Origin: Janthinobacterium sp. SUN073
Lineage (GTDB): Bacteria; Pseudomonadota; Gammaproteobacteria; Burkholderiales; Burkholderiaceae_D
DNA length: 64,000 nt
Direction of reading: 5' to 3'
Assembly: GCF_030397665.1 (NCBI RefSeq)
Contig: NZ_JAPUBT010000011.1
Span: 1 to 64,000, forward strand
Shown piece after piece: positions 448-48,487 of this stretch. The first letter of the stretch is position 1; each line of letters starts with the position of its first letter. Under the pieces are notes generated by a model. That model ran no database searches. It saw only the letters and a program-made list of their open reading frames with translations, and was not told where the DNA came from. Both the position numbers and the translations under genes were made by a program.

Positions 448-570
448 CTACGCAAGCTGCAGCTCCCAATATCCCACATCAATCCACTGATCAAATTTAC
501 GGCCGACCCGCTTGAACATGGCCACCTTCTCGAATCCCAGGCGTTCATGCAAAGCGACACTGGCGTCGTT
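448..570 (-). pseudogene. C-terminal remnant of a GNAT N-acetyltransferase
   Basis: Read leftward from 570 to the TAG at 448-450, one open frame encodes about 40 residues containing SVALHERLGFEKVAMF and KFDQWIDVGYWELQ. This is the typical C-terminal end of phosphinothricin/methionine-sulfoximine-type GNAT acetyltransferases (S-x-LHERLGFE, then the W-x-DV strand). The first two thirds of the family, including the acetyl-CoA binding loop, are missing. The scrap starts within a few bases of the end of the helicase gene and lies between two 13-bp direct repeats, so it was probably cut when the neighbouring island arrived. It cannot be functional. Confidence 0.75.
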
Positions 571-2617
571 AGGCAGTCATCCAATAATCATTCAGGCAGG
601 TGTGAATTTCTTTTGCAAGCTTGAAGCGCATAGCAGTTAGCAGCTGCGAGTGTGCGGTGGCCGGCATATCGATCTCTTCTGCAGTCACTACTGGAGCACC
701 ACCAAGGAGTACATCGAAGCGCGCGAGGCGCTCGCGGATGATGCGCACAAGCGCTTCGTCTCGCGTGTTGGGGTAGGCTGGATATGCATATTCGACGGGC
801 GCGCCAACCCGTGCCGCCCAGCTTGCGACGCGACGCACGCGGCCTTCCCGCTGGCGCACGCGCACGGGGCTAGGATCGAGTTCGTAGTGCACCAGGATGC
901 GGCAATAGCGATGCAGGTCAATGCCCTCCGATAGCTTGTCGGTAGCGACCAGCACATCCGGCCCGAACGGTGTGTTAAACAGCGCCAGGCTTTCAACGAT
1001 ATTTTCGGACTGAGGAAAAATGACCTTGTCCGCTGCATGCCTGCGCAGCGCGCTTGGCAAGTTTGCGTTACCGTCGTGCTCTTCTCGTTGAGCGATGTCC
1101 ATAACGGCCTCAGCGATGGTTGGTACAGCCCGATTGCTACCGGCTACCTTGCGCACGCGCGTCCTGCGAAGAGCCTTGATGAGCGCAGCACGATCAAGTT
1201 CGTCCACACCAGGCATCAGCCATCCCCGCACCTGGATATGGAAGCCAGGTTCAGTGACGAAGGCAAGCGCGGCATTATGCAACTCGGCGTCTTCGACAAC
1301 CGGCGCCAGGATCTCTGTCCACGCCTCTTTCCACGTGCTGCGTACCGCTTTCTTCAATACCGCGTACTGTCCCCGGGACTGAAGCGATTTCTCGTGCCGC
1401 AACGCGTCGCGCAGCTCCTTCGCGGTGGCGATATGGTGGCAGAACACCACCACCTTCTCGCCCTGCGCCACCTTACCGGCAATTGCTCGTGTCACAGCAG
1501 CGATTTTTTCGTGCTCCCTGCCCGCGAGAAAAGCGCGTAACTCATCCGCATGTCGTCGCGCGAGCAAGCCGATACGGCTGATATTGCCACGCAGTGCATC
1601 GCGCCTGGCATTAAATTCCTCGCTGACATGCTCCCCGGTTTCTTTCGAGACCAGGTCACGCAAGTATTCCCAACCCACGTGGAAGCGCGGGTCATTACCG
1701 CGCAGGCCGGTCGCTTCACCGGCCAGGCTGATTAGCCGATCCGCGCGAACCAGTGCCGTAATCACCTCGCCACTCGCGGCGGGAACCACGATGTCCCACG
1801 CGGCGCGGTCGCCGAAAATTTTCGTTCGCTGCGCTGGTGGCAACTGATCAATAGTCGTCCGCATCACCCAAGGCTTCAGTTGCGCGACTGCGGCACGCCA
1901 AAGCCCAACGGCAGCGTCTACTGGCAATGATGGCTCCTGCGTTGCCGCCTTACTTGCTTCGCCGATGAACTTTGAAAACGCAGTAATGTCATTCGTTGCC
2001 GCATCGCCTGCAGATACTTGGCGTAGCATCGACACCAGTTCGGCAATGTGAATCGAAAACGGTGTCGCGGTGAGGAAGAGCATCCATCGGCAGCGTTTCG
2101 AGCGCGTTTTCAGACGGGTCTTGAAATTACTGGTGTCATTCTTGGAACGGTGCGCCTCGTCCACAATGACCAGCTCCGGGCGAAGTCCCGGAAAATCTTC
2201 GTTAGCATAAAGCGCATGCGTGGTGAGCACGATACCGCCGGCGCTGGAGCGGCTGACCGCCCAACTGCCGTCGCTCATCCTGTGCTGCAGACGAGGCGAG
2301 CGGACCCCAGAGAGCGATGGCATGGCCCCCAGTACCTTGCCGATATCCGTTTCCCATTTCGACTGTAGCGTTTTTCCCGGAACAATGATGAGCACAGAGC
2401 CGCCATTCCTGGCTACGATGAGCGCTGCCAATGCCGCGACCCATGTCTTGCCAAGCCCTGCGTCATCGGCCAACACCACGCCTCTCTGGCTTGCAAGTCG
2501 TTTCAGTATCTCGCGGGCGCTGGCCAGCTGACGAAGCAATGACGCCAGGTCAGTGGCGCCCCCGCTTTGCTGCGGGTCGAGCAGCGCTGCGGCATTTAAT
2601 AAAGTTGTGTTCATCAT
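569..2617 (-). CDS. SNF2-type DEAH-box helicase, 682 aa
   Basis: A superfamily 2 ATPase. It has a Walker A motif DDAGLGKT (residues 51-58), a DEAH box in VIVDEAHRSKN (about 153-156), motif III LTATPF, and a C-terminal helicase lobe with VATDKLSEGIDLH and the motif VI-like QREGRVRRV. The arrangement matches stand-alone SNF2/RapA-like translocases that couple ATP hydrolysis to movement along DNA or protein displacement. It is the last gene of a leftward operon: its ATG overlaps the TGA of the Tdp1-like gene by 4 bases, so translation is likely coupled. The final codons run into the 13-bp repeat and the acetyltransferase scrap, so the natural C-terminus may have been altered by that junction. 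The partners suggest DNA-directed defence; the specific role is inferred. Confidence 0.88.
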   Translation of the reverse strand: MMNTTLLNAAALLDPQQSGGATDLASLLRQLASAREILKRLASQRGVVLADDAGLGKTWVAALAALIVARNGGSVLIIVPGKTLQSKWETDIGKVLGAMPSLSGVRSPRLQHRMSDGSWAVSRSSAGGIVLTTHALYANEDFPGLRPELVIVDEAHRSKNDTSNFKTRLKTRSKRCRWMLFLTATPFSIHIAELVSMLRQVSAGDAATNDITAFSKFIGEASKAATQEPSLPVDAAVGLWRAAVAQLKPWVMRTTIDQLPPAQRTKIFGDRAAWDIVVPAASGEVITALVRADRLISLAGEATGLRGNDPRFHVGWEYLRDLVSKETGEHVSEEFNARRDALRGNISRIGLLARRHADELRAFLAGREHEKIAAVTRAIAGKVAQGEKVVVFCHHIATAKELRDALRHEKSLQSRGQYAVLKKAVRSTWKEAWTEILAPVVEDAELHNAALAFVTEPGFHIQVRGWLMPGVDELDRAALIKALRRTRVRKVAGSNRAVPTIAEAVMDIAQREEHDGNANLPSALRRHAADKVIFPQSENIVESLALFNTPFGPDVLVATDKLSEGIDLHRYCRILVHYELDPSPVRVRQREGRVRRVASWAARVGAPVEYAYPAYPNTRDEALVRIIRERLARFDVLLGGAPVVTAEEIDMPATAHSQLLTAMRFKLAKEIHTCLNDYWMTA

Positions 2618-4416
2618 CGTTGTGCTTCCTCGACCAGCAGGCGCAGCTCTTCAGCCGCAATGGCAGCCCCCGGGTCATTGCCGGCGCGGCGCTCAAGCGC
2701 GGCAGCGAGACGCAATCCTAGAGGCAGATGGACGTTGACAGGCTGGAATTCGATCTCCTCCCGCCATGTATCGACGACCTGCCGCCAGCGACGGGCCGCC
2801 AGCAGCCAGGACAGGCTGTAGTCGGCACTGCTGGCTGCACGCTCCTCACCCTTTTTGCCGCGAGAGCGGGGTGGGCCGGAGGGAACAGGTAGGCCGCCAT
2901 ATTGCTCCAGCTCGATGTCTTCCGCCAGGTGCATCACATCGTACCCAAGGCCGGCCGGCAATGGCCTTCCGGGCCGGATGTCGGTGATCGGGAGCACGAT
3001 CTGTTCGCCATTCGCGTCAGGGGAAACCAGCCTGACTTTCTCGGGCTGCAGGCCATCCAGCGATTGGGTTGCGATCCATCGTTTCCCCTGTTTCACGGCA
3101 GGCGGGAACGGGTACCAGTCCTGGCCGTCTTGCCACTCAGCCATTACCGCGCAACCGGGGCGCAGGCGATAAGCGCAGGTCAGCGTGCTTTCGCTACGCG
3201 TGACCTGTGCCCACCGGAGCCAATGAATCTCGTCGTTAACCGGTAGGCGCTCCATTAGCGCGACGTCGCCGGTGAATCGCTGGAACGGACCGTGCAAGGG
3301 CAGCGACTGTCTCTCCACAAAGACCGATAGCTCAAAATTCTTCGGCGGCATCCCATCAGGCACACCCCAAGCGGCTTTCGACCAATTGTGCGAGCCAAGC
3401 ATCAAGCCATGCCGGAACCCATAGAATTTGGCATGGCACCAGCGCCTGTCGTTCGGATGGCCTTCCGCCAGCACGGGCTTGACGCGCGGATCAGCGACCG
3501 CCAACAACCGAACTCCCGCCGTGTCCAGTGCGCCCTGTGCGGCGACGGGCATTTTCCACAAGCCCGGATCAAGAGACTCTGCCGCTCCCACCCAGGGATG
3601 CGATCGATCTGGCCAGAACAGTTCTACCTTGTCCGGCCGGACGCCGAGCATGGCACACCAGGCCCTGATTTCCTTGTCATTCCACTCGCCAATGGAGGGT
3701 GTGAGGATGCGGACACCCACCTTGCCCGCAGCCGTCTTTCCTGCCAGTAGGCCGGTTTGCTGGCGGTCCATGTGTCGGCCCGGAATGCTGGTGATGAAAT
3801 GGCTGCCCTGTATCTCCGGGCAGCGCTGCAGTAACTGGATGAACCTGCTGGTGGCACCGGAGCAATCGGCTGCGACGCCAAGTGCATCCATAAAGTCGCA
3901 CAGCGCGGCATGAGGTTTACCGCTGCGGCCAGCTTTCTCAAGCGGTAGACAAATACTCCAGCCTGCCTGCAGCTGACCATGGAACGCATCCGATGTGAGG
4001 TTAGTGGACGAGATGGTTATCTGCAAATATTCGCCGTCCTGCCGCCACCAGTGGCACAGCCACAGCTTCGCGTGCTGAACGCTGTCGCGATCGCTGCCGA
4101 CCATGCGGCAGTCGACATAGCTGCCCAGCCACGGCAAACTAGCCATGTTCTCTTCAGGCAGTGCGCACGAAGTCACGATCGTGATTTTCCCTGGCACTTT
4201 CTGCAGAGCTGCCACGGCCGCCCCCACGAACAGGCGATCATTGTCCGAATCGGACGATTCACCTTGGTCGAGCTGAAGCAGCACCGGCAGCACATCGCGC
4301 AGCAGAAAGTGTGGTGATACGGGCTGATACGAGGTGAGAAACGCGTCCAGCAGGATGGCTTTCTCCGGTGGGAGCGGCATTGGCGACCGCTGCTCGAGGG
4401 ATTTCCTATTCATCAC
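2614..4416 (-). CDS. Tdp1-like phospholipase D superfamily protein, 600 aa
   Basis: Two HKN-type active-site motifs are visible. The first is HAKLWLCHWW (H115, K117) followed by SSTNLTSDAF (N139). The second is HAKFYGF (H328, K330) followed by LGSHNWSKAAWG (N344). The second closely mirrors the SANLSKAAWG signature of tyrosyl-DNA phosphodiesterase 1, which hydrolyses 3'-phosphotyrosyl and other 3' DNA adducts through a covalent phosphohistidine intermediate. The length is near that of eukaryotic Tdp1. The start is GTG at 4416 or ATG at 4413; it directly follows the stop of the upstream gene and overlaps the helicase start by 4 bases. The C-terminal 200 residues show nothing recognisable. A nuclease role instead of adduct repair is possible. 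The PLD assignment is firm, the Tdp1 subfamily likely. Confidence 0.8.
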   Translation of the reverse strand: MMNRKSLEQRSPMPLPPEKAILLDAFLTSYQPVSPHFLLRDVLPVLLQLDQGESSDSDNDRLFVGAAVAALQKVPGKITIVTSCALPEENMASLPWLGSYVDCRMVGSDRDSVQHAKLWLCHWWRQDGEYLQITISSTNLTSDAFHGQLQAGWSICLPLEKAGRSGKPHAALCDFMDALGVAADCSGATSRFIQLLQRCPEIQGSHFITSIPGRHMDRQQTGLLAGKTAAGKVGVRILTPSIGEWNDKEIRAWCAMLGVRPDKVELFWPDRSHPWVGAAESLDPGLWKMPVAAQGALDTAGVRLLAVADPRVKPVLAEGHPNDRRWCHAKFYGFRHGLMLGSHNWSKAAWGVPDGMPPKNFELSVFVERQSLPLHGPFQRFTGDVALMERLPVNDEIHWLRWAQVTRSESTLTCAYRLRPGCAVMAEWQDGQDWYPFPPAVKQGKRWIATQSLDGLQPEKVRLVSPDANGEQIVLPITDIRPGRPLPAGLGYDVMHLAEDIELEQYGGLPVPSGPPRSRGKKGEERAASSADYSLSWLLAARRWRQVVDTWREEIEFQPVNVHLPLGLRLAAALERRAGNDPGAAIAAEELRLLVEEAQR

Positions 4417-5772
4417 CTAGTTCTCATTCTCTGTATCCGGTTCCTCATCGGTCTGGCGCTCCCTGTCGCCCTGCAGGGCGATGGGTAGCGTGGAGATCAC
4501 CTTGCACCCCTTGGCAAGATGGGCTAGCGCCGCCAGGCGAAAGCGATAGTAGCCGCCTGGTGGCTGAGCATATTGGGCGACGCGATCGACCTTGCCATCC
4601 CGCTCTCTCAGCCACAGCAGTCCTCCAGCAGACTGCTCGTGCAACCGTAGAAGACGCTGCAACCGCGCTGCAGGACTGCCCTTCTGTCGCAAAGCAGCAG
4701 CGAAACGCTCCACCTGAGGCCAGACATTGCCGGTCCCCCATTGCGCGCAAGCCCTGGCCAACTGGTCCAGTTCCGGCGCCATGCCGGCCGCGACCTCGGC
4801 AACGTCCGGTTGCGCGTTTTGATTTTGGGCTGTGAGCCTGTAGGTCGCATCCAGGGCATCGATTGCCGCATCCGCCAAGTATGCAAACTGCTCCAGCTTG
4901 CTTAGCCTAGCCCGATCCCGACTTTCCCAGCCGTTACGCACTAATAGGAGCCGCTGGAGCTCGCCGCAAAGTTCCGCATGCGTGCGCGCAGTACTGGCCG
5001 CCAGCCCATCGGCGACCGCGCGACGCCGACTTCCGTCCGGGAACAGCTTTGGCGTGATCAACGCGCGCTCGGCTGGAAGCAATGCCTTGACATACCCAGG
5101 CAAAAAATCGCTTGAACTCGGGGGTGAGCTGGCAATAGGCCAGCGTCGCAGCCAGTAGGCGAGCCAGCCGTTATCGGGGTCACCCTTCAGGATGTTTCCT
5201 GGCTTGGGATTGGGCACCTGCCCGGCAGCGACGCGAGCAAGCTTGCGCCCCTCTGGCGATAGGGTCCATCCGTCCACCTCGAGCAGCGCCAGGTGTCGTA
5301 ACAGGCTTCGGTAGGCGGCGTAAGGACCAACATAGCGATAGCGCCGCCACTGGCCCTGCCCCATTTCCAACTGCAGATTCAGGTACTGTTCCAGGTTAAG
5401 CCTTCGGACGGTGCGGCTACCGGGCAGCTGCCGGCCTTTGCCCTGATCGGGCAACTGGCAGGCCTCCATTACCCAGCGCAGTTCCAGACCGCGCAAACGG
5501 TCGTAGTCACCGGCGACACCGCTTGGCGCGACAACGGTGGCTTGTACTTGCTGCAGGCTCCAGCAGAGGATCGTCAGCCAACGAGCGTCACGCTGGCGGT
5601 TGGTCAGATCGGGAGCAAGCAGGTCAGCATAGAACGTGGCGACTTCCGCAAAGCCGAATGGATCGCGGCGGCGTTGGGGCTCCCGGACTAGTGGGACGGT
5701 TTGAAATAGGACGGGTTTTGATGGCATCGACGCGTTAGTGTTGTTCAAGACAGCGCGCCGCACGGAAGGCAA
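4417..5772 (-). CDS. Unknown protein, first gene of the Tdp1/helicase operon
   Basis: I do not recognise this 451-residue protein. It is mostly helical, rich in Arg, Leu and Ala, with no P-loop, zinc-binding cluster, signal peptide or membrane segment. The C-terminus is acidic (DEEPDTENEN). The longest frame starts at TTG 5772. An ATG at 5727 (peptide MPSKPVLFQT) is an alternative; neither has a convincing Shine-Dalgarno sequence. It abuts the Tdp1-like gene with no gap, so the three genes form one leftward transcript. Being first and the only member without an enzymatic signature, it may be the recognition or scaffolding subunit, which is inference only. Confidence 0.7.
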   Translation of the reverse strand: MPSVRRAVLNNTNASMPSKPVLFQTVPLVREPQRRRDPFGFAEVATFYADLLAPDLTNRQRDARWLTILCWSLQQVQATVVAPSGVAGDYDRLRGLELRWVMEACQLPDQGKGRQLPGSRTVRRLNLEQYLNLQLEMGQGQWRRYRYVGPYAAYRSLLRHLALLEVDGWTLSPEGRKLARVAAGQVPNPKPGNILKGDPDNGWLAYWLRRWPIASSPPSSSDFLPGYVKALLPAERALITPKLFPDGSRRRAVADGLAASTARTHAELCGELQRLLLVRNGWESRDRARLSKLEQFAYLADAAIDALDATYRLTAQNQNAQPDVAEVAAGMAPELDQLARACAQWGTGNVWPQVERFAAALRQKGSPAARLQRLLRLHEQSAGGLLWLRERDGKVDRVAQYAQPPGGYYRFRLAALAHLAKGCKVISTLPIALQGDRERQTDEEPDTENEN

Positions 5773-9244: not shown

Positions 9245-9467
9245 CGATGTTTTGGGAATGGCAACACTGTGCTCGGAACACTTCCGCGACGGTGTGCCCG
9301 ATGCGTTTGGCGCATCCCTGGCCACCGAGGTGCTTGACCCAATTCTGAAAGAAATCGACTCGCTACGCATTTTCAATACAGAGTTTCAGCGGCAAGTGCT
9401 CAGCATTGACACAAGCCTGGCGGATGCACGCGGCATTCAGGGTCACGATCACGGGTGGGACAGATGA
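9237..9467 (+). CDS. Small helical unknown protein, 76 aa
   Basis: The most likely start is ATG 9237 (peptide MFDDVLGMA), overlapping the preceding stop by 8 bases. The stop overlaps the FtsK-like ATPase start in ATGA. The product is predicted to be helical, with no known motif. Size and position between a WXG100-like/coiled-coil pair and an FtsK-like ATPase would fit a second small helical partner of the same complex, but the sequence gives no family match I can name. Confidence 0.55.
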   Translation: MFDDVLGMATLCSEHFRDGVPDAFGASLATEVLDPILKEIDSLRIFNTEFQRQVLSIDTSLADARGIQGHDHGWDR

Positions 9468-12187
9468 GCGGCGTTCACTACCATTACAAAGAGACGATCT
9501 CCCGGATGAACAAGGCGATCGCGGATTATCGCGAAGGTCTCCTGCGCATCACACGGGAATACGAGGCCGTCTACGTTCGGATTGATCACTCCCGTCGCGG
9601 CGCGCATGGACTCGCGGACGACACGCAGCAGGCCGATAGCGGCCGCGCGAAAAGAATATTGAACTGGCAATCGGTGTTTGCCAAAGAATGGGAAAAGGTC
9701 GCTGCTGCGAATGCGCGTTCGAGCGCCGAGCTTCTTCGGACTCAGCCCTCTTTAATCGATTTCCGACGCGATCACCCGCCGATGGCTTCGCGCATTCCCG
9801 CACACATCGCGCTCGGCTCGCATCAATTTTTTTTCGAAAAGCTTTCCTGCCTGGTGCCATGCACCGTGCCATTTCCGCTTGCCCGGCCCATCGCTCTGTC
9901 GGAAGACAACGCGGCGCACCAGCGCCTTGCGCATGCCCTCCTTCTTCGCCTGCTATCGGCTTTGCCGCCGGGACAACTGGAACTGACGCTCGTCGACCCG
10001 CTGCAACTGGGACAATCGCTCAGGCCCTTCCTGTCGCTGCTGAAAGTGACGCAATTAGTGCCGCAACAACGTGTGCTGACTCGCTCGGACGAGATCGAAG
10101 CCGCCCTCGGCACACTGACGGACGAGGTCGAGGAGCTGATTCAGCATCGGCTCAACGACAAGGCGGCCACTTGGTCGGCATACAACGCCACGCATCCCTC
10201 CAGTGCCCTGTCCTACAAGGTCGTGCTGCTGTCCGATGTCCCGGAGCAACTCTCGGACAAGAGCCTGTGGTTCCTGGAACGGCTTTGCGAGAATGGTCCG
10301 CGTTGTGGTGTCCTGCCCATCATCACGCTTGATGCAGAGCGCATGGAGGACGGGCGCTACGCGAAACTGCGCGCCACGCTGGACGCCTCGGCCATGGACT
10401 TCGACGCGCTGCTGGCGGGCACGGCGGACGCGGCAGACGGTTGCGATGGGCTGTCGTTCGCCTACCAACCGGAGCAGTGGCCCCATCAGGAGGTGTTGGA
10501 GGGATTTTTCTCCGCACTTGCCCAGGCTTGCGCCGACAAGTCGCGTTTCAGCAGGACGCTGCCCGACCTCTGGACGCCTTTCAGCAAGGGCGCCAGTACC
10601 GGCGGTGGTTTCGATATTCCTATCGGCTGGACACCCGCAGGGGAGCCCGTGTCACTGATCCTGGGTGCGACCGCGTCCGAGCACCACGCATTACTTGCTG
10701 GGAAAACCGGCTCCGGAAAATCCAACCTGCTGCATGTGTTGATTCATACGCTGTGCGAAAAATACGATCCCGCAGAACTTGACCTTTATCTGCTGGACTA
10801 CAAGGAATCGACGGAATTCAATATTTATGCCGCTCCGCCCTTGCCGCACGCCCGTCTGGTGGCCACGGAAAGCGACCCGGAATACGGCGTGACGGTGTTG
10901 CGTCATCTCGTGGAAGAGCTCGAAGGGCGCGCGCGCATGTTCAAGAACACGGGCGTGCGCGATTTTGCCGAATACCGCCTTACCGGCCTTGCGCGGCTGC
11001 CGCGTATCCTTCTCGTCATTGACGAGTTCCAGGTCCTGTTTTCGGAAAAGCGCCAGGTTGCAGAGGCGGCTGAGCAACTTCTCTCGCAACTCCTGAAGCA
11101 GGGCCGCTCCTTCGGCATCCACATTCTGCTGGCAACGCAGACACTGAAGGGCATCAATGCCCAATCGATAAGCAGTCTCATCACCCAGCTGGGAAGTCGC
11201 ATCGCGCTGGCCTGCGGCCAGGAAGATTCGGCGATGATCCTGGGAGGAAATAACTGGGCGGCAGCCGAGCTTCGCAGCCCGCCCGAGGGCATCATCAACA
11301 ATGCCAACGGTGCGAAATCGGGCAATGTGAAGTTCCTGATTCCTTTGGCGGAAGGTGCAATGTGCCGCGAGCATGTGGGCAGGCTCGCGGCATATGCAGC
11401 TTCGCCTGGCGCGCGCGCCAAGACACGGATATTCAGCGGAGCGTACTTGCCGGAACTGCCATCCCCCGAAGCATTGTCAGCGCTGTGCGCGCCAAACGCG
11501 ATTGCCCTGGGCGAGCGCCTGACATTCGAGGCCGACGCGCTGATCATCCCGCTCGCCCGGCGCGCCGCATTCAACGTCCTGTTCAGTGGTTACGACGACC
11601 AGATTCACGACGGGCTGCTGGCCGCCACGCTCTCAAGCATCAGGTTCGCCGGCGACTTCGACGAGGTCGTGTATTTCAACGGGCGAGGCGTTGTTCCCGG
11701 CGGTGGCGTGCCTGCCGCCGCCGCGGCGCTGGGCGCGCGTTTCAAGGCGTACGACGACATTGCCGCGCTACCACTGCAAGCGATAGCGGACGGCATCGGT
11801 ACCCGCCGTGTCGCGCTCATCATCGATGGTCTCGATGCCGAGAAGGCGCTGCATCCGGCGCCGTCGTTCAGGCCCGCCAAGCCTGGTGAACCACCGTCTG
11901 CGGCGGACCTGCTGAAGCGCCTCGCGGAAGAAGGTCCGCGCAAAGGCACATTCGTGTTCGTGTTCGTGGACCGATGGCAGCGCTGTGCCAGTGCCTGCAA
12001 GGACCTCCTGGCATTCTTCGAGCTGCGGGCAGCCTATTGCATGAACGAAGACGACGCAGGATCGCTTGTCAGTGGTGGCATCGGCAAGTTCAAGGGTATC
12101 GAAAAGCCCAACCGCGCCGTTTTTGTCAACAGGATGACCAACGAGATCGCATGGTTCAGACCCTATATTCGAAAGAACCCTCAATGA
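9464..12187 (+). CDS. FtsK/SpoIIIE-HerA-like ATPase, 907 aa
   Basis: A P-loop motor with Walker A AGKTGSGKSNLLH (about residues 412-424) and Walker B ILLVIDEFQVLF (about 513-524). An LLATQTLKG sensor-like segment follows, as in FtsK/SpoIIIE translocases and type VII EssC proteins. The first 80 residues are coiled coil. No transmembrane segment is visible, so it is a soluble motor, unlike FtsK or EssC. The C-terminal part (from about 680) may be a second, degenerate ATPase lobe: SGYDDQIHDGLLAATL and VALIIDGLDAEK occur without an intact P-loop. ATG 9464 is chosen for the ATGA overlap and the preceding GGGTGGGA. It probably pumps DNA or a partner protein for the neighbouring nuclease-like products. 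Confidence 0.88.
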   Translation: MSGVHYHYKETISRMNKAIADYREGLLRITREYEAVYVRIDHSRRGAHGLADDTQQADSGRAKRILNWQSVFAKEWEKVAAANARSSAELLRTQPSLIDFRRDHPPMASRIPAHIALGSHQFFFEKLSCLVPCTVPFPLARPIALSEDNAAHQRLAHALLLRLLSALPPGQLELTLVDPLQLGQSLRPFLSLLKVTQLVPQQRVLTRSDEIEAALGTLTDEVEELIQHRLNDKAATWSAYNATHPSSALSYKVVLLSDVPEQLSDKSLWFLERLCENGPRCGVLPIITLDAERMEDGRYAKLRATLDASAMDFDALLAGTADAADGCDGLSFAYQPEQWPHQEVLEGFFSALAQACADKSRFSRTLPDLWTPFSKGASTGGGFDIPIGWTPAGEPVSLILGATASEHHALLAGKTGSGKSNLLHVLIHTLCEKYDPAELDLYLLDYKESTEFNIYAAPPLPHARLVATESDPEYGVTVLRHLVEELEGRARMFKNTGVRDFAEYRLTGLARLPRILLVIDEFQVLFSEKRQVAEAAEQLLSQLLKQGRSFGIHILLATQTLKGINAQSISSLITQLGSRIALACGQEDSAMILGGNNWAAAELRSPPEGIINNANGAKSGNVKFLIPLAEGAMCREHVGRLAAYAASPGARAKTRIFSGAYLPELPSPEALSALCAPNAIALGERLTFEADALIIPLARRAAFNVLFSGYDDQIHDGLLAATLSSIRFAGDFDEVVYFNGRGVVPGGGVPAAAAALGARFKAYDDIAALPLQAIADGIGTRRVALIIDGLDAEKALHPAPSFRPAKPGEPPSAADLLKRLAEEGPRKGTFVFVFVDRWQRCASACKDLLAFFELRAAYCMNEDDAGSLVSGGIGKFKGIEKPNRAVFVNRMTNEIAWFRPYIRKNPQ

Positions 12188-13947
12188 AGAAGTTCCTGCT
12201 CACCTGGTATGGCATCACCGACTTCCGCGCATCGCTGGGGTTTGAAAACACGGACGGTCCTATCGCCGGGGCACTGGTGGCCGAGGAGTATTCTGATGTC
12301 GTCGTGCTGTGCTACACGCGGATGGACGACACGTCCGGCGGGACGGATGCCCAGGCGGCCTTCGAGGCAGCGCTGGCAGCGGTCCATGACGCGGGCCAGC
12401 ACAGGGACTGGAAGGTGACTGGCGAATTCGTTTCCAGATTCGCCAACACCCCCGCCGCGCACGCGCATTTCGCCCGCTGGCTGGAAGAGCGCGTGCATGC
12501 TGCGGGGACGAATACGAAAGTCTGTTTCAAGAGCGAAAAGCTGCGCGAACTCAATGATACGGAGGGAATCTACGCCTGTGCCATGGACGCACTGGACTTC
12601 GCTGCCAAGGCAGATGGTGAGAAGCTCGTCACGCTCTACCTGAGCCCGGGCACGCCGGTCATGGCCTTTGTCTGGGCACTGGCGGCACTGCGGCATCCGG
12701 ACCTGAAAAAACGGCTCATCGTCTCGCCGGTCGTCGGCAAGCCCCCCGAGGTCATTTCTTTGCCTGCCGAATGGCTTGATCGGCATGACGCAAGCCAGAC
12801 AGGCTCAGGCAGCGTCGTCGACGGGTTCGACGTGACATTCCACCTGTTCGGCGAGCAGCGCATGCCGTCCCTGCTCGGAATTCGGCAATTCGCGTCAAAA
12901 AAACATGTCTTCGTCAATTCGAAGGAATATCCCGCATCGTGCGTGGAATCGTTCCTCGACGGCAATCCGTTCGAGGAGCTTGCCGTCTCGCCCTGGGATG
13001 CCAGATCCGTCCACGATAAGATCATCCATCATGCCAAGCCGCTGCCGGCGAATACGCGTATCGGCATCAACCTCACTGGCGGAACAAAAATGATGTTCAC
13101 CGGCGCCCTCTCGGCCGCCCGGGCGCTTGGCGCTGTCCCGTTCTATTTTGACAGCCGCAATCATCGCGTGACCTTTGTCGACAGTCATTTCCAGGAAGTT
13201 ATCAGGCCGATCGATTCAATCGAAGACTTCCTGATCCTGAACGGGAACGGATTGAAGGTATCGGAAAAGGGTTTGCCAACCGAGATGCCGGCAGATCGCC
13301 GTCGCCTGACCGACATGTTGTGGAGAAATCATACGAAGATCGCGCGCTGCTACAGGAAGTTGCGCGAGTTTAACGATGGATGTAAACCGTTCGTCTTCGA
13401 AAATGAGCATTTCTATTTTTCGCTTGGCAAGGATGCCTCTGCCACAGCAAGAGGTGGCGGGTTGGACATGCATTTCCAAAACTGGCCCGATTTTGCGAAA
13501 TATCTGTCGGGCGGCTGGTTCGAGGAATACGTGTATTCGCAGTTCAAGCCCTACGAAGACAAGGGCATCATCAAGGATCTGAGAATCAACGTCAAGTTAC
13601 AGCTCGATCGTGAAAACGCCCCCGGGGCGCTGCGTCCGGACAGCGCCCTGTACAACGAACTCGATGTCGTGTTCACCGATGGCTATTCGCTCTACATCGT
13701 GGAGTGCAAGGCAGGCGATGTGACACAGGAGCAGGTGATGAAATTGCAGAACCTCGTCCGATTCTATGGCGGGGTGGAAGGTCGAGGCATCCTTGCTTCG
13801 TGCTTCCCGCCCGCCACCGAGGCAGTGCGGAAGAAGATCAAGGATGCAAGATTATCGCTTTGCAGTGGAAAATGGTTCTCGGAACAGCTCGATGCCCTGA
13901 TGGACGGCATCGCGGCACGCGCCAGATCAATCCGGGAAGCCCCATGA
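12184..13947 (+). CDS. CARF-domain nuclease (DUF1887/Card1-like), 587 aa
   Basis: The central region has the CARF hallmark NLTGGTKMM (from about residue 296). It is followed by a C-terminal restriction-endonuclease fold with ELDVVF (D494) and YIVECKAG (E507, K509), the order seen in Card1/Can2 nucleases activated by cyclic oligoadenylate. The N-terminal 120 residues (LTWYGITDFRASLG, then VVVLCYT) recall a second CARF/RtcR-type sensor half, making it longer than Card1 (about 370 aa). It starts in ATGA overlap with the ATPase gene and ends in ATGA overlap with the second VWA gene. No CRISPR locus or Cas10 is in the window, so the activating nucleotide is unknown. It is probably the signal-gated effector of the operon (inferred). 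Confidence 0.82.
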   Translation: MKKFLLTWYGITDFRASLGFENTDGPIAGALVAEEYSDVVVLCYTRMDDTSGGTDAQAAFEAALAAVHDAGQHRDWKVTGEFVSRFANTPAAHAHFARWLEERVHAAGTNTKVCFKSEKLRELNDTEGIYACAMDALDFAAKADGEKLVTLYLSPGTPVMAFVWALAALRHPDLKKRLIVSPVVGKPPEVISLPAEWLDRHDASQTGSGSVVDGFDVTFHLFGEQRMPSLLGIRQFASKKHVFVNSKEYPASCVESFLDGNPFEELAVSPWDARSVHDKIIHHAKPLPANTRIGINLTGGTKMMFTGALSAARALGAVPFYFDSRNHRVTFVDSHFQEVIRPIDSIEDFLILNGNGLKVSEKGLPTEMPADRRRLTDMLWRNHTKIARCYRKLREFNDGCKPFVFENEHFYFSLGKDASATARGGGLDMHFQNWPDFAKYLSGGWFEEYVYSQFKPYEDKGIIKDLRINVKLQLDRENAPGALRPDSALYNELDVVFTDGYSLYIVECKAGDVTQEQVMKLQNLVRFYGGVEGRGILASCFPPATEAVRKKIKDARLSLCSGKWFSEQLDALMDGIAARARSIREAP

Positions 13948-15127: not shown

Positions 15128-16466
15128 GTTCGACAAGCACCGAACCCAGGCGCCGCTTGCCGACGAATATGGCAATGTCCACCAGATCGCTGACGAACTT
15201 GCCAGGGGTGGTCAGGGCGTCGTGTTCCGCACCAGGGATGCAGATCTGGCAATCAAGCAACCGCTCGACCCATCCGGGCAACCCGACAGGCGCGCCAATA
15301 TGCGCGACCGTTTCCGGCACATTCGCCTGCTGCCGATGCCTGCCCGTGTTCCAGTCTCACTGCCTCTGGCCATCCTGCGCGACCAACCCGGCTACGTGAT
15401 GCGCCTGTTGAACGGGATGAAACCGTTCAATGCCTTCGATCTGGACGGCAGGGCAAAGAAGGCGCAGGAGGACGGGAACGTCGCCCTCCCCGAATGGCTG
15501 GCAAGGATTCAGGACAGAGACATGGCATTGCGCCTCCTGCATTATGCCGGTACGGGCTCGACGCGCCGCCGCCTGTTCGCGCTCGCGAAGTGCGCCGCTA
15601 TCCTCGCCCGTCTCCACAGTGCGGGACTGGTCTATGGCGACATCTCGACCAACAATGCGTTCCTGGGCGAGGGAGCTTCCCGCGATGTCTGGCTGATCGA
15701 CGCGGACAACATGCGCTTTGAACAGTCGAGCGCGGGCAGTGCTGTCTACACGCCGGGTTATGGCGCCCCCGAAGTCGTGCGTGGCACCGGCGACTCGCGT
15801 CCGCGGACAGATTGCTGGGCGTTCGCGGTCATGGCGTTCAAGATGCTGGCGCTGTGCCACCCCTTCATCGGCAAGAAAGTGCTGGAACCCGAGGACGACG
15901 AAGGCGGATGGGATGACAAACCGGCAGAGGACGGTGCGCCTGCCGACTTGGATGAGCGGGCCTATGCCGGTTACCTGCCGTTCGTGGATGACGAGGACGA
16001 CGATTCGAACGAGAGCATTGGCGGCCTCCCTCGCGACCTGGTCGCCACGGCGGGACTGCGTCGCCTGTTCCAGGAAACCTTCAACGCGGGAAGACATCAC
16101 CCGCACCGTCGTCCGGCAATGGCGTTCTGGGCACTGGAGCTGGCCAGGGCATTCGACCAATCGCTGGAATGCACGGCATGCAAAATGAGCTATTTAGCGC
16201 ACCAGCACGAGAACTGTCCTTACTGCCGCGCGCCGCGTCCAGCTTTCATCCGTGCCAGAACCCCGCGCTGGGAAATCTCGATTCCCGCCGACGCCACCGA
16301 AGCGGCGCTTCCGCACCGTCTGTTCCACCCGTTTTCGTTCGAGCACAACGACAATACCGAATATGAGGCAGTCCTGAATTTCTCGACCAAGACCATCACG
16401 CCGGTGCGGGGCACGAGGCCATTTCCTGACAATCTGACTGTCGAGTTCGTAGGAGCGGGACAATGA
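15120..16466 (+). CDS. Ser/Thr protein kinase of the TerY-P triad with zinc ribbon
   Basis: 448 residues. Kinase-fold signatures are a glycine-rich loop GGQGVVF (about 30), an IKQ lysine (about 46), a catalytic loop VYGDISTNNAF (D174, in place of HRD) and LIDADNM (D194, in place of DFG), then an APEVV-type activation segment end. An acidic insert (LEPEDDEGG and following) is unusual. The C-terminus has a zinc ribbon CTAC...CPYC. Start ATG 15120 is deduced from its 8-base overlap with the phosphatase; a much longer frame upstream is a shadow. The stop overlaps the helicase start in ATGA. The zinc ribbon may hold nucleic acid or partner proteins. The catalytic-motif deviations are the usual ones for TerY-P kinases. 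Confidence 0.88.
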   Translation: MSEFDKHRTQAPLADEYGNVHQIADELARGGQGVVFRTRDADLAIKQPLDPSGQPDRRANMRDRFRHIRLLPMPARVPVSLPLAILRDQPGYVMRLLNGMKPFNAFDLDGRAKKAQEDGNVALPEWLARIQDRDMALRLLHYAGTGSTRRRLFALAKCAAILARLHSAGLVYGDISTNNAFLGEGASRDVWLIDADNMRFEQSSAGSAVYTPGYGAPEVVRGTGDSRPRTDCWAFAVMAFKMLALCHPFIGKKVLEPEDDEGGWDDKPAEDGAPADLDERAYAGYLPFVDDEDDDSNESIGGLPRDLVATAGLRRLFQETFNAGRHHPHRRPAMAFWALELARAFDQSLECTACKMSYLAHQHENCPYCRAPRPAFIRARTPRWEISIPADATEAALPHRLFHPFSFEHNDNTEYEAVLNFSTKTITPVRGTRPFPDNLTVEFVGAGQ

Positions 16467-19400
16467 AATTCCAGGATATCCCGGCCGACATCCTCACTCT
16501 GCGCGTCAAGCCGACTGGCAATGCGGTCGCCCTGCGCGAGCAACCTGTCCTTTCGGTGGAAGCAGATCCATCCCGTCCGGATCAATTCGACATCCGCCTC
16601 AGGGATGCCCTGGTGTCCGTGCGGCCTGTCGCCGACAACGACGTCCGCCGTCTCAATGCCGAGCTCGCAAGCGGTCGGGCACTGCTCGCGCAACTTGACA
16701 ATCCCGCGGCCGACGGCAGCACGGACCTGCGCATCGCCTTCTTCACGGGCGAGTGTCTCGAAATGGGCGGCATTGATATCGGCGTGGACGAGTATGTGGA
16801 GGACGCGGTCGCCAGGCTGTGGCATCGAAAAAGCGAATTCAAGGGCGAGCGCCTTTACGGCATGCTCGACAAGCGCTGCTGCCTGCGCCACGGCGACAGC
16901 GCCTATTTTTTCCTGACTGCCGGCCCGGCGATCGACGAAGCCTTGCAGCCGGAAGGCTCCGAAACGGCATCGGACGACGATAACGATGCGACCGGGTCCG
17001 ACGACATGGAAAATGCGGACGAGCCGAACCCGGTTCCTGGCGATGCAGCCCGTGCGCAGAAGGCGACGCCGAACCGCAAGAACTCCTTCTGCGTCACCGG
17101 CGACGGCATCCGCTTTGTCGCCACCGCAACCTCCCAGCCAAACAACACATCCATTTTCCTCACGACCCGCCTGACCAAGGCCAGGAAAGGATCCGACCGC
17201 GCCCTGCGCCTGGCCAGGGGAACCCTCCGCTTCGTTGACTGGACCCAGGCGGGACAGATCCAGACCCTGGCCAGGGCGCAAATGACCGCGCTCACCCAGG
17301 ACAACGGGAGTTATCTGAAGAAGTGGGACGAGTTTGGCGATCTGGAAGGTGAACTGCTGCTCAGACAAGCACGTGAAGTCGGGTCGCTGAAGTTTTCCGA
17401 TATGGTGCAGCAGCGCAACGGCACGGTTTCCGTTTGCATATCCGGGGCCGCCGATTCCGCCCTGGACGCATTGGCGGACGGACGCGTGCCGGAAATCGAG
17501 ATTATCGACGAGCTACCGGACTACCTGAGCAATGAATCGCTGCGCTTTGTCGACTTTGCGATCCGAATGAAACAAGCGGAGGAAAGTGGCACCTCGGCCC
17601 GAAAGAGTGTGCAGCGCGAGGAAAAGACCAATTTCGGCGTCGCCGATTTCGACAGGGAGTCGATGACACTCACCCTCAAGGCGGAAACCCTGCCGAAGCA
17701 AACCGGCATGCTGATCCTCTCGCTTGCCGGTGAGATTGCCCAGATCAAGCGGCGGATGGCCGCCCGCAGTGCGATCGTCGAAGGCCGTGCGGCCAATCCT
17801 CAGCTCGGGCTCCTGATCGAAGAACGGGGGCAAATCACGCCGATCCGTGCTTCGCACAAGGTTGCCCCCTTGACCGCATTCGTTCGCAACAAGGTGTTTC
17901 GCAATCCACCGACCGCCATGCAGGAGAAAGCCATCGAGACGGCACTGAACACTCCTGACATCGCGCTGGTTCAGGGACCGCCCGGCACCGGCAAAACCAC
18001 TGTCATCGCAGCGATTCTAGAACGGCTCAACGAGCTGTCGGACAGGCGCGGCGCAAACATCAGGGGCCAGGTGCTATTGACCGGCTTTCAACACGATGCC
18101 GTTGAAAACATGATCGAACGGCTCACGCTCAACGGCATTCCGGTTCCGAAATTCGGGAAGCGTTCCAACGCAGAGGAAGATAACGCCAGCCTCTTCGAAG
18201 CGAGGATGGACGAATGGTGCGAAAAACTCGCTGCCGAACTTCGCCAGCGCAATCCGCGGATCGCGGACATCGAGCAGGAAGCGGACATCAAGAATCTGTG
18301 CCTGCAATACATCCAGGCGCCGACGCAAGCGCTGGCGGCGCGTCTGGCCGGCAAGATTGCAGAGCTCGGCATCGCCATTCTTGGCGAGGGTGCTGCGCGA
18401 CAAGCCGCAAATCTTGCAAAAAAACTTTCGAACGAAGAAAAGCTCAACGGAGATGCCAGCGAGTGGCTCAACACCGTGCGTCGCCTGCGAATTCATCCGG
18501 GAAGCTTCGCGGACGATGGACCGGAGAGGGCTGACGACGCACTGGAAGAGCTGCGCGGCGTACTCGACGCGAGCGATCTCGACTTGCTGGAAAAAGCCAG
18601 CATGTGGCGCAGCGAAGACGGTCTTCCGACTTTCCTGGATAAGCTCGCGACCCTCAAGAATACGCTGCTTGCCCGCTTTACCGCCCCGCCTCTGTTCCGT
18701 GTGGAGAAGCAAAACGATGAAATCCTTGCGTTGGCGGAAATTGCAACCAAGCGAATCCAGGCCGCCGGACATTCGGTAAGGGACAGGAAATCCGCCGCCC
18801 TGGCCGAGTTCCTGGCCGAGCTCGAAAGCAACGCTTACGGGATGATTGATGCAGTGTCCGAGTACAGTTTTGCGTTTGCCGCCACCTGCCAGCAAAGTGT
18901 GAACAAGCGGATGCAGATCCAGAAAGGCATCACTGGAGGCGGCGTCAGCCAGAGCCAGAAATCGATCGAGTATGAATACGTCATCGTCGATGAGGCCGCC
19001 CGCGTGTCGCCCCGCGATCTGATGGTCCCGATGGCGCAAGGCAAACGCATCATCCTGGTCGGCGACCACCGACAACTACCCCACATCATCGACGACGAGG
19101 TAGCCCGCCAGATGGAGGCGGGCGAAACCGGCCAGCAGGAGTCTGAGTGGCTCAAAAAATCCATGTTCCAGTATCTTTTTTCTGAACGTTTGAAAACCCT
19201 CGAAGAGAAGGATGGCGTCCTTCGCCGTGTCACGCTCGACAAGCAATACAGAATGCACCCGCTGCTGGGCGACTTCATCAGCCGCAATTTCTACGAACGT
19301 TTCGACCCGGTGGAGCGATTCGGTTCCGGGCGGCCCGACAGTGATTTTGTCCATGACCTGCCCGATACGAACGGCAGACCGGCGGTCTGGCTGAACGTGC

Positions 19401-19906
19401 CTGCCAGGAAAGGCAAGCACCAACGCAGCGGAACGAGCTGGACGCGCCCGGCCGAGGCCACAGTCATCGTCCGCCAGTTGCAAGCATGGATGAACTCGAA
19501 TGCGGGCACGTCGCTTTCGTTCGGCGTGATCTCGTTCTACAAGGCACAGGCCGAGCTCATAAAAAAACAACTCGGCATGCTCCGGCACGATGACAAGCGG
19601 CTTCGCGTCGGCACGGTGGACTCGTTCCAGGGAATGGAGTTCGACGTCGTCTTTTTGTCGATGGTCAGGACCTTGCCGCACAACCCTAAACCGGACAATG
19701 ACGATCGGGAGGCACAGGCGCGAACGCTTTTTGGCCACCTCTGCCTGTACAACCGCCTGAATGTCTCCATGAGCCGCCAAAAAAAGTTGCTGGTCGTTGT
19801 GGGCGATCTGGACTTGCTGCAAGGCCGGCTTGCCGCGGAGTTTGTTCCGGGGCTGGTCGATTTCCACAAACTCTGCCGTGAACAGGGCGTGGTGCTGCAA
19901 TGCTGA
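16463..19906 (+). CDS. UPF1-like superfamily 1 helicase, 1147 aa
   Basis: The C-terminal 650 residues carry the full UPF1/Dna2-type SF1B motif set: QGPPGTGKTT (about 505), YVIVDEAARVSP (about 842), GDHRQLP, DKQYRMHP, VGTVDSFQGMEFD and RLNVSMSRQK. The N-terminal 480 residues are an unrecognised region with an acidic Asp/Glu-rich linker around 165-195. A long insertion of about 300 residues between motifs Ia and II is helical and could bind nucleic acid or a partner. An AGGAG lies before ATG 16463, and the start overlaps the kinase stop. UPF1-like helicases unwind DNA or RNA 5' to 3'. A target for the kinase, or a motor acting with the McrB-like protein, is inferred. Confidence 0.9.
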   Translation: MKFQDIPADILTLRVKPTGNAVALREQPVLSVEADPSRPDQFDIRLRDALVSVRPVADNDVRRLNAELASGRALLAQLDNPAADGSTDLRIAFFTGECLEMGGIDIGVDEYVEDAVARLWHRKSEFKGERLYGMLDKRCCLRHGDSAYFFLTAGPAIDEALQPEGSETASDDDNDATGSDDMENADEPNPVPGDAARAQKATPNRKNSFCVTGDGIRFVATATSQPNNTSIFLTTRLTKARKGSDRALRLARGTLRFVDWTQAGQIQTLARAQMTALTQDNGSYLKKWDEFGDLEGELLLRQAREVGSLKFSDMVQQRNGTVSVCISGAADSALDALADGRVPEIEIIDELPDYLSNESLRFVDFAIRMKQAEESGTSARKSVQREEKTNFGVADFDRESMTLTLKAETLPKQTGMLILSLAGEIAQIKRRMAARSAIVEGRAANPQLGLLIEERGQITPIRASHKVAPLTAFVRNKVFRNPPTAMQEKAIETALNTPDIALVQGPPGTGKTTVIAAILERLNELSDRRGANIRGQVLLTGFQHDAVENMIERLTLNGIPVPKFGKRSNAEEDNASLFEARMDEWCEKLAAELRQRNPRIADIEQEADIKNLCLQYIQAPTQALAARLAGKIAELGIAILGEGAARQAANLAKKLSNEEKLNGDASEWLNTVRRLRIHPGSFADDGPERADDALEELRGVLDASDLDLLEKASMWRSEDGLPTFLDKLATLKNTLLARFTAPPLFRVEKQNDEILALAEIATKRIQAAGHSVRDRKSAALAEFLAELESNAYGMIDAVSEYSFAFAATCQQSVNKRMQIQKGITGGGVSQSQKSIEYEYVIVDEAARVSPRDLMVPMAQGKRIILVGDHRQLPHIIDDEVARQMEAGETGQQESEWLKKSMFQYLFSERLKTLEEKDGVLRRVTLDKQYRMHPLLGDFISRNFYERFDPVERFGSGRPDSDFVHDLPDTNGRPAVWLNVPARKGKHQRSGTSWTRPAEATVIVRQLQAWMNSNAGTSLSFGVISFYKAQAELIKKQLGMLRHDDKRLRVGTVDSFQGMEFDVVFLSMVRTLPHNPKPDNDDREAQARTLFGHLCLYNRLNVSMSRQKKLLVVVGDLDLLQGRLAAEFVPGLVDFHKLCREQGVVLQC

Positions 19907-42506: not shown

Positions 42507-42642
42507 GCCGCCAGCGTAGGCCGCGCGCGCGCGGAACGGGGAAAGGCAAAAGTCGCTATGCCCGATAGCAACCCGCCCCGCATTGAATCGCAACGCCAAG
42601 ACGTTGACCATGGCGTTATCCGATCAACCGAGACTGACCACC

Positions 42643-43434
42643 ATGGCAACCAAATCCCAATTCTTCCGCGTCGCCACCGAAGGCGCCACCACGGACGGCC
42701 GCAACATCGACCGCGCAACCATCGAGCAGCTGGCCGCCAGCTACAACCCGAAAACCTACGGCGCGCGCATCTGGCTCGAGCACATTCGCGGCATCCTGCC
42801 CGACAGCCAGTTCAAGGCCTACGGCGACGTGATTGCCGTCAAGGCCGAAGAGGTAGACACCGACAATGGCAAGAAACTGGCGCTGTTCGCGCAGATCGAG
42901 CCGACGCCGGAACTGGTCGCCATCAACAAGGCGAAACAGAAGCTGTATTCCAGCCTGGAAATCGCCCCTGACTTTGCCGATACGGGCATGCCCTACCTGG
43001 TTGGCCTGGGCGTCACCGACAGCCCCGCCAGCCTGGGCACCGATGCACTGAAATTCTCAGCGAACCGCAAGCAGCAAAGCACCAATCTGTTTAGCGCTGC
43101 CGTCGAAGTCGAGCTGGTGTTCGATGAACCGGCGGGCGTCAAGCTGGCCGATGCCATGAAAAACTTGCTGTCGCGCTTTTCCACCACCACAGGCAGCAAC
43201 GCGGCGCAGTTCGCCGACATCAGCGAAGCCGTGCAGGAACTGGCCGGCCACGTCGTCACCGTCAACAACAACTATGCCGACACCCTCAAGCGCCTCGACG
43301 CGGCGGAAAAGGCGCAGAAAGCAACGCAAGACGAGCTGGCCACCTTCAAGGCGCAGATGGACGAGGCGCCCGGCAACGGCCCGCGCCGCCCGTCCGCCAC
43401 CGGCAACGAAGGCGCCGTGCAAACCGAGTTTTAA
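42643..43434 (+). CDS. O: Capsid scaffolding protease (P2 gpO)
   Basis: 263 residues from ATG 42643 (MATKSQFFRV). Opens the rightward late cluster and is divergent from terminase. The N-terminal half is the serine autoprotease (WLEHIRGILPDSQFKAYG, SLEIAPDFADTGMPYLVGLG, TDSPASLGTD). The C-terminal half is helical scaffold. It directs capsid assembly and trims the capsid protein and itself. Confidence 0.93.
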   Translation: MATKSQFFRVATEGATTDGRNIDRATIEQLAASYNPKTYGARIWLEHIRGILPDSQFKAYGDVIAVKAEEVDTDNGKKLALFAQIEPTPELVAINKAKQKLYSSLEIAPDFADTGMPYLVGLGVTDSPASLGTDALKFSANRKQQSTNLFSAAVEVELVFDEPAGVKLADAMKNLLSRFSTTTGSNAAQFADISEAVQELAGHVVTVNNNYADTLKRLDAAEKAQKATQDELATFKAQMDEAPGNGPRRPSATGNEGAVQTEF

Positions 43435-43479
43435 GCACACGCCATCCCCAACACCCCACCAACAACGGAGCACCGATCA

Positions 43480-44496
43480 ATGAAAAAGAATACCCGCCAG
43501 GTCTACAGCCAGTATGAAAACCGCCTGGGCCAACTGAACGACACGGACAGCGTGGCCAAGACCTTCAGCGTGGCGCCCAGCGTGCAGCAAAAGCTGGAAA
43601 CGAAGATGCAGGAATCGAGCGAATTCCTGTCGAAGATCAACATCATGGGCGTGGCCGAGCAGGAAGGCGAAAAGCTGGGCCTGGGCGTGTCCGGCCCGAT
43701 TGCAGGCCGCACCGACACCAAGGCCAAGGAACGCGAAACGCGCGACCTGTCCACCCTGGACAGCACGAAATACCGCTGCGAGCAAACCAACTTCGACACG
43801 CACCTGACCTATGCCAAGCTGGACGCCTGGGCCAAGTTTTCCGACTTCCAGTCGCGCGTGGCCAACGCCATCGTGATTCGCCAGGCGCTGGACCGCATCG
43901 TCATCGGCTTCAACGGCGTGAAAGTCATGGCCACCACCGACCTGGCCGCCAATCCGCTGCTGCAGGACGTGAACAAGGGCTGGCTGCAGCACCTGCGCGA
44001 ACAGGCGCCCGAGCGCGTGCTGGGCCTGGCCGGCGCCGGCTTGCCGGGCAAGGTCATCATCGGCGACGGCACGGACGCCGACTATGCCAATCTGGATGCG
44101 GCCGTGGTCGATGCCGTCAACTTGCTGGACCCGTGGTATCAGGAGGACACGGGCCTGGTGGCCATCGTCGGGCGCAAGCTTTTGAGCGATAAATACTTCC
44201 CGCTGGTGAACACCAAGCAGGCGCCCACGGAAACCCTGGCGGCCGACATTATCCTGAGCCAGAAACGCATCGGCGGCTTGCCGGCGGCGCGCGTTCCCTA
44301 CTTCCCGGACAACGCCATCCTGATTACCCGCTTCGACAATCTGTCGATCTACTTCCAGGACGGCGCGCGCCGCCGCCGCGTCGAGGACAAGCCCTCGCGC
44401 GACCGCATCGAGAACTACGAATCGTCGAATGACGCCTACGTGATCGAAGACCTGGGCCTGGCCGCACTGGTGGAGCACATCGAGCTGAAAGCCTAA
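43480..44496 (+). CDS. N: Major capsid protein (P2 gpN)
   Basis: 338 residues, HK97-fold major head protein. Typical gpN landmarks: FLSKINIMGVAEQEGEKLGLG, GWLQHLREQAPERVL, TETLAADIILSQKRIGGLPAARVP and the C-terminal YVIEDLGLAALVE. A good GGAG precedes the ATG. Near the length of P2 gpN (357). Confidence 0.95.
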   Translation: MKKNTRQVYSQYENRLGQLNDTDSVAKTFSVAPSVQQKLETKMQESSEFLSKINIMGVAEQEGEKLGLGVSGPIAGRTDTKAKERETRDLSTLDSTKYRCEQTNFDTHLTYAKLDAWAKFSDFQSRVANAIVIRQALDRIVIGFNGVKVMATTDLAANPLLQDVNKGWLQHLREQAPERVLGLAGAGLPGKVIIGDGTDADYANLDAAVVDAVNLLDPWYQEDTGLVAIVGRKLLSDKYFPLVNTKQAPTETLAADIILSQKRIGGLPAARVPYFPDNAILITRFDNLSIYFQDGARRRRVEDKPSRDRIENYESSNDAYVIEDLGLAALVEHIELKA

Positions 44497-44499
44497 GCC

Positions 44500-48481: not shown

Positions 48482-48487
48482 TGGTGT

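Follow-up and report, generated by a model that had tools for sequence, protein, structure and literature searches.

What does a Tdp1-like phospholipase D (PLD) enzyme do in a bacterium when its gene is flanked, on the same strand, by genes for a SNF2-type ATPase and for a protein with no Pfam match? The question is raised by an operon at the left end of the stretch analyzed here (the window: bases 1-64000 of the 196,870-base contig NZ_JAPUBT010000011.1 of Janthinobacterium sp. SUN073, viewed from base 1). A sequence-only reading of this DNA had proposed a possible new defense operon made up of a Tdp1-like enzyme, a SNF2 helicase and a third protein. Three minus-strand open reading frames (ORFs), back to back, indeed fill 569-5772, the first ~5.8 kb of the window, and H115, H328 and the motif SHNWSKAAWG of the PLD protein had been correctly read. 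Here we establish that these genes form a co-inherited three-gene unit, that one of them has a Tdp1-type fold and active site, and that the unit lies among defense genes. We infer that its products probably form an ATP-driven complex for DNA surveillance and DNA cutting, akin to Azaca, with DNA as the substrate and an anti-phage activity.

4417..5772, minus strand: gene A ('ZacA-like'), 451 amino acids from TTG; homologue 5' of gene B in 20/20 loci, some incomplete
2614..4416, minus strand: gene B ('ZacB-like'), 600 amino acids, GTG start, Tdp1-type PLD phosphodiesterase
569..2617, minus strand: gene C ('ZacC-like'), SNF2/SF2 ATPase of 682 amino acids; homologue 3' of gene B in 20/20 loci

Genes A and B adjoin without a gap (A ends at 4417 and the GTG of B is at 4416), and the overlap of the PLD and SNF2 genes noticed earlier comes to 4 bases (2614-2617). 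By eye, the ATG at codon 16 is a likelier start of gene A than the TTG.

Conservation of the three-gene unit

Scanning a species-genome collection (84,980) with a two-sequence PLD alignment yielded 20 loci. In 20/20, as in the window, A, B and C lie in the same order and on the same strand. Because the loci were fetched with the PLD alignment alone, this recurrence excludes a chance arrangement, and the predicted three-gene synteny holds, the third gene included. Two of the loci, L007 and L019, are on the same contig; L019 enters the count of 20/20, and L007 was used in alignments and neighbor counts. Some loci are incomplete or damaged: the start of gene A is missing in L020, L029 and L034, where it lies at a contig edge or close to one, the stretch ends within gene C in L016, L020 and L023, gene B is frame-split in L033, and gene A is broken or split in L035. 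The order was already largely visible when the queries were limited to the proteins of the window and L007; with those two, gene A went unlisted in L021, L026 and L029, and gene C in L016, L020 and L023 (overlapping or open-ended ORFs).

Hosts of the related loci belong to the Pseudomonadota, Myxococcota and Planctomycetota, and include Gallionella, Dyella, Rhodopseudomonas, Roseateles, Oxalobacteraceae, Polyangiaceae, Archangiaceae and Planctomycetes. The window forms a long lone branch in a quick tree. Distances in the three gene trees correlate with r values of 0.94-0.98, as expected for co-inherited genes. Occurrence is sporadic: among 40 genomes from the genus, the window's own is the sole carrier of the system; a scan of the order found it in 3 of 250 genomes at E<=0.001, one of the three weakly; and a gene A profile run against 398 genomes of the phylum matched the window alone. 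A further match to gene A, in genome G089 (L003/L008), was dropped, being a long high-GC frame at a locus lacking A, B and C profile matches. Searches of mobile DNA gave no confirmed relative of the window PLD (as a single sequence) in viral contigs and plasmids, of the L007 PLD in plasmids and phages, of window gene A in plasmids, or of the PLD family alignment in viral contigs, and so provide no evidence for phage or plasmid carriage.

This distribution bears on the idea that A-B-C is a horizontally mobile DNA-repair module, cleaning 3' ends, and not a defense system. Tdp1 is a repair enzyme, SNF2 proteins take part in the chromatin and repair processes of eukaryotes, and the family is found in diverse environmental bacteria, all of which would suit such a module. 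Its sporadic occurrence and its defense-gene-rich neighborhood (below) argue the other way, and we consider the idea highly improbable.

The three gene products

Gene B scores 38.2 bits against PF06087 (Tyr-DNA_phospho), for which the Pfam cut-off is 22. All 20 PLD family members match this model at E<=0.1 (best 5.2e-24), passage of the cut-off itself having been recorded for the window protein. The alignment behind these counts holds the window and 19 related loci, with the split gene B of L033 left out, and its profile matches solved human TDP1 at 9.8e-11. Of 200 genomes scanned in the order, two have a PF06087 match (one over the cut-off), each lying within an A-B-C operon.

The predicted model of gene B (mean predicted local distance difference test score, pLDDT, 79.5; predicted template-modeling score, pTM, 0.82) led to the same family. 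TDP1 fills ranks 1-46 of the Foldseek search. With VIA-align, TDP1 rows reach Z 19.7-21.2, the top one being human 1rg1_A (Z 21.2 over 338 residues, 3.6 A), compared to 15.1 for the best non-Tdp1 row shown (F13), 14.1 for PLD4 and ~11 for Streptomyces PLD. Among PLD enzymes, TDP1 is thus the nearest to the modeled fold. Its active site is divided between two halves:

3967..4074, minus strand: half 1, H115-x-K117 ... N139 ... Q150, invariant in 20/20; N139...Q150 aligned with human TDP1 NLIHADWHQKTQGIW
3331..3435, minus strand: half 2, H328-x-K330 ... N344-W-S-K-A-A-W-G ... N-F-E362-L, aligned with TDP1 SANLSKAAWG...SYELGV

H115, K117, N139, Q150, H328, K330, N344 and E362 are all invariant across the 20 members. 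We take these eight to match H263, K265, N283, Q294, H493, K495, N516 and E538 of Tdp1; the N-Q and N-E parts were aligned directly, and the H-x-K parts were assigned from motif order. The site thus reads H-K-N-Q / H-K-N-E, without the aspartates of HKD enzymes. In half 2, S342, S346, A349, W350, G351, N360, F361 and L363 are likewise invariant (20/20). Gene B has in common with human and yeast TDP1 the eight catalytic positions and, over residues 2-390, the fold; it differs in being bacterial and operonic, in its 14-19% identity and in an extra C-terminal region of ~200 residues, beta-rich and helical, that falls outside the TDP1 match. Based on the Pfam match, the predicted fold and the invariant catalytic positions, gene B is a Tdp1-type and not a generic PLD, as the sequence-only reading had maintained; in the comparison of structures it had called for, human TDP1 came out nearest and no generic PLD nuclease closer.

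Tdp1 cleaves 3'-phosphotyrosyl bonds hydrolytically (PMC10137840). Gene B could be a true 3'-adduct remover, hydrolyzing such bonds while gene C clears the protein, and would thereby free or destroy covalent recombinase- or topoisomerase-DNA intermediates (those of tyrosine recombinases of phages or mobile elements, or self-inflicted lesions). The presence of all eight catalytic positions, Q150 and E362 among them, and of a fold nearest TDP1 speaks for this. Against it, the first of the two serines that follow P..G in TDP1, presumably DNA-binding, reads N in gene B (a single column, at which the alignment ends), and the type of active site does not by itself fix the substrate. Known phage terminal proteins, moreover, are 5'-linked. 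Since Tdp1 acts at 3' bonds, protein-capped phage DNA, one of the targets first suggested for the operon, is awkward and in its plain form unlikely; if adduct removal is real, a better fit would be the 3'-phosphotyrosyl intermediates that tyrosine recombinases form. Overall, we regard the adduct-removal account as improbable. We would give very little credence to its most elaborate version, an immune complex with a functional tyrosyl-DNA phosphodiesterase as its effector, which detects and dismantles the 3'-phosphotyrosyl protein-DNA intermediates of phage or mobile-element tyrosine recombinases, telomere resolvases and IB topoisomerases, while the SNF2 translocase strips protein and an acidic-tailed adaptor gates the enzyme.

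For gene C, PF00176, PF04851, PF00270 and PF00271 (SNF2/ResIII/DEAD and Helicase_C) all score above cut-off, and the Walker A and Walker B motifs hold invariant residues:

2444..2467, minus strand: Walker A, DDAGLGKT; D51, D52, G54, L55, G56, K57 and T58 invariant in 18/18 rows
2150..2161, minus strand: Walker B / DEAH box; D153, E154 and H156 invariant in 18/18 rows

Gene A yields no Pfam match above cut-off, and NCBIfam has none for genes A or B. The predicted model of gene A is helical throughout, bar one short hairpin. Searching with it gave no fold match (Foldseek E>1; best Z 4.2, with pore-toxin and 14-3-3 rows), which is not evidence for a new fold. Two features stand out:

4420..4479, minus strand: acidic C-terminal tail; last 20 residues, acidic excess 6
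5554..5673, minus strand: N-terminal motif RRDPFGFAEVATFYADLLAPDLTNRQRDARWLTILCWSL, the main stretch alignable with Azaca ZacA/DUF6361; hhalign P 0.006

An acidic excess of at least 5 occurs in the tails of 14/16 gene A family members (the exceptions are L031 and the broken L035), compared to 0/12 Azaca ZacA proteins, 2/94 neighbor proteins and 2/93 control proteins. With 12 Azaca ZacA sequences as the comparison set, the hhalign P value of gene A is 0.0028. When columns were shuffled, none of 200 shuffles reached the observed score of 30.4, the best one coming close at 29.6.

Kinship with Azaca

The sequence-only reading knew of no system with this composition. That claim stands in part: a Tdp1-type PLD and a first gene without DUF6361 do set the operon apart, but its gene order and weak homology match zacABC of Azaca, a system originally described by Millman and colleagues in 2022. 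As comparison set we used 12 Azaca loci, four canonical ones and eight from plasmids, the latter annotated with DUF6361 plus, mostly, a phospholipase D family protein and a helicase. The best PADLOC matches of the window are, in gene order, ZacA (E 0.0025), ZacB (6e-6) and ZacC (4.3e-21), and the ZacB model is matched by 20/20 PLD family members (best 1.3e-14). Profile comparison with hhalign gives probabilities of 97-98% for B (~300 columns) and for C (over a short stretch; see below), so that B is homologous to ZacB and C possibly to ZacC. Both systems consist, in the same order, of a protein of ~400-450 amino acids without known function, a PLD of ~600 amino acids and a SNF2-type helicase. 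A review table assigns a single PLD-like domain to Mokosh and Azaca (PMC10952713).

Some neighboring genes are shared as well. A pair encoding a PD-(D/E)XK nuclease and a UvrD helicase lies directly 5' of Azaca in L068 and L070 and nearby on the other strand in L073, i.e. at 3 or more of the 12 Azaca loci. Among the Tdp1-type loci, such a pair is found directly 5' of the operon in L022 (69-71% identical to the L068 pair) and 0.4 kb 5' of it in L030 (48-49%).

L068, 919-6986: PD-(D/E)XK + UvrD pair, Azaca locus
L070, 845-6900: PD-(D/E)XK + UvrD pair, Azaca locus
L073, 419-5427: PD-(D/E)XK + UvrD pair, Azaca locus
L022, 497-6600: PD-(D/E)XK + UvrD pair, Tdp1-type locus of Dyella solisilvae
L030, 152-6129: PD-(D/E)XK + UvrD pair, Tdp1-type locus of Rhodopseudomonas rhenobacensis

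None of 18 control loci has the pair; the nuclease alone occurs near L017, and UvrD matches in L038 (30% identity over 269 residues) and L007 (2.3e-7) were not counted. As many flanks are short, the counts are lower bounds. Possibly, the pair is a partner module common to Azaca and the Tdp1-type system.

These resemblances could mean that A-B-C is simply a divergent Azaca with the mechanism of canonical zacABC. Common gene order, A and B proteins of the same size class, the PADLOC and hhalign matches and the nuclease-helicase neighbor at some loci are all compatible with this. The differences lie in each of the three genes. The first is acidic-tailed and not recognizably DUF6361 (Pfam PF19888), a domain found in 4/4 canonical ZacA proteins and in 0/16 gene A members at E<=1. 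The PLD is Tdp1-type, whereas canonical ZacB motifs are generic, mostly HPK...SRNLT and LHAK...GSANAT...NVEV; PF06087 is matched by 0/4 canonical ZacB proteins, and SKAAWG is absent from the motif stretches of the 12 Azaca ZacB. The ATPase, finally, is shorter by at least 300 residues (~690 amino acids in the gene C family, ~1000-1250 in canonical ZacC ORFs). Identity of mechanism is therefore, in our estimate, unlikely. Because the DUF6361 feature was looked for and found lacking, we describe A-B-C as Azaca-like instead of filing it under Azaca, and we call the operon a putative sister type of Azaca with a Tdp1-type PLD.

Other systems are more distant. DISARM (DrmC and DrmD) and the PADLOC system PLD_Helicase likewise combine a PLD nuclease with a SNF2 helicase in defense and give weak matches to hidden Markov models (HMMs), but the window scores lie under those of ZacB and ZacC; DrmC is matched by up to 14/20 PLD members (best 5.6e-7), compared to 20/20 for ZacB. 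DrmA and DrmB are absent among the 25 of 126 neighbor PADLOC models listed (see below), and the genes found in every locus are A, B and C. The PADLOC candidate PDC-M27, known here from HMM matches alone, supplies the second-best match of gene C (PDC-M27C) and matches 7/20 PLD members (PDC-M27B), in both cases more weakly than Azaca. The combination of an SF2 ATPase with a PLD nuclease is well established in defense, with SauUSI (PMC3874153) and DruE of Druantia III (PMC13192584) as precedents. In the open-licence PubMed Central (PMC) literature, the matches listed contained no report of a Tdp1-type active site in a conserved bacterial operon beside defense genes; none of those for ZacB concerned defense by title, and DUF6361 had none.

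A few PADLOC matches were set aside. The ZacB match elsewhere in the same genome (contig C32, L009) belongs to a different PLD protein, and no ORF of L009 matches the A, B or C profiles; this second PLD protein, at L009 5137-9356, has 866 amino acids and a 540-amino-acid gene just 5' of it. L040 and L041, with weak ZacA matches, also lack matches to the A, B and C profiles and were not used. Their proteins (520-530 amino acids; L040 6647-8209, L041 6459-8051) match ZacA near the N-terminus alone and are followed by genes of ~786 amino acids; they perhaps represent another family using the ZacA N-terminal motif.

Defense setting and proposed mechanism

The sequence-only reading had placed the operon in a defense-rich region, and the surroundings of the family support this. 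At E<=1e-20, 126 PADLOC models found a match among neighbor ORFs of the Tdp1-type loci (n=94), compared to 2 among control ORFs (n=93), in a count that includes redundant models and controls not matched by phylum. The neighbor set comprises 97 ORFs that passed the filter minus three operon fragments; for the control set, 94 of 146 ORFs were drawn at random and one, of 3227 amino acids, was removed. Among the 25 of 126 models listed, the one matched by the most neighbor proteins was RTasHel (4), followed by GajB (3) and by methyltransferases and mad2 (2). In the window itself, neighbors match CARF4-PDDEXK, MkoA-like, SspH/HerA-like and bSEFIR models; 4 of 10 neighbor proteins scanned gave no PADLOC match at 1e-5.

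Taken with the Azaca kinship, this setting leads us to favor an Azaca-like surveillance and cutting complex. Gene C would load on DNA, translocate along it or remodel it, and sense DNA that is foreign or abnormal (free ends, for example, or stalled replication structures). Gene B would provide the catalytic output, breaking or trimming phosphodiester bonds without metal through a covalent phosphohistidine intermediate. Gene A may serve as a helical adaptor coupling the two, its acidic tail plausibly mimicking DNA and acting as an autoinhibitory brake on B until C is engaged. The literature covered contained no account of how Azaca works.

Several observations weigh against this interpretation. 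The PADLOC ZacA model is matched by only 1/16 gene A members, none of which has DUF6361, and the hhalign probability for gene A versus ZacA is 6-11%, confined to the N-terminal motif. For gene C, the hhalign match (97.8%) spans ~60 residues around helicase motifs V-VI, which are common in SF2 enzymes, and the best NCBIfam match is DrmD (3.8e-22), followed by DpdE, both far under their cut-offs. The nuclease-helicase pair is near at least 2/20 Tdp1-type and at least 3/12 Azaca loci only, and the neighborhood enrichment carries the redundancy and phylum mismatch just mentioned. Finally, a Tdp1-type site could serve 3'-end repair instead of cleavage.

The comparison suggests that in Azaca-like systems the PLD slot can be filled by different enzymes, and it turns the mechanism of Azaca into a testable question, namely why similar partners work with PLD active sites as different as these two. 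It also provides a bacterial source of Tdp1-fold enzymes for comparison with the human enzyme, an inhibitor target.

The left edge of the operon abuts a gene remnant, and further genes lie to its right:

448..577, minus strand: 3' end left over from a GNAT acetyltransferase gene (named by eye), adjoining gene C at its end, probably the boundary of an island; 41 codons + stop; 87.5-89% DNA identity to intact genes in three sister species
9455-12187, plus strand: FtsK/HerA-like ATPase
11974-13947, plus strand: CARF4-PDDEXK match (PADLOC, E 9.8e-264)
16463-19906, plus strand: MkoA-like helicase

Such a remnant, the last 41 codons of a gene intact in sister species, is as expected of an island. 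DNA similarity to those species stops at 574-577, which places the stop codon of gene C within GNAT-derived sequence. A few residues may therefore be missing from the C-terminus of gene C; its profile match ends at 694 in the window and at 694-704 in other complete loci. In the sister species, the intact GNAT gene sits by arsenic-type genes (ORFs assigned by eye).

The three plus-strand genes belong to a long set at 6578-27766 that also includes a vWA protein, a second vWA protein, phosphatase-like and kinase-like genes and large proteins of no assigned family (partly by eye); together they may form a single composite conflict system. At the other end of the window, 62375-63820 gives a strong PADLOC bSEFIR match (E 4.7e-105). 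The stretch at ~42600-61000 is prophage-like, with ORFs resembling capsid-scaffold and tape-measure proteins (by eye), and contains a tRNA-Arg gene at 55371-55467.

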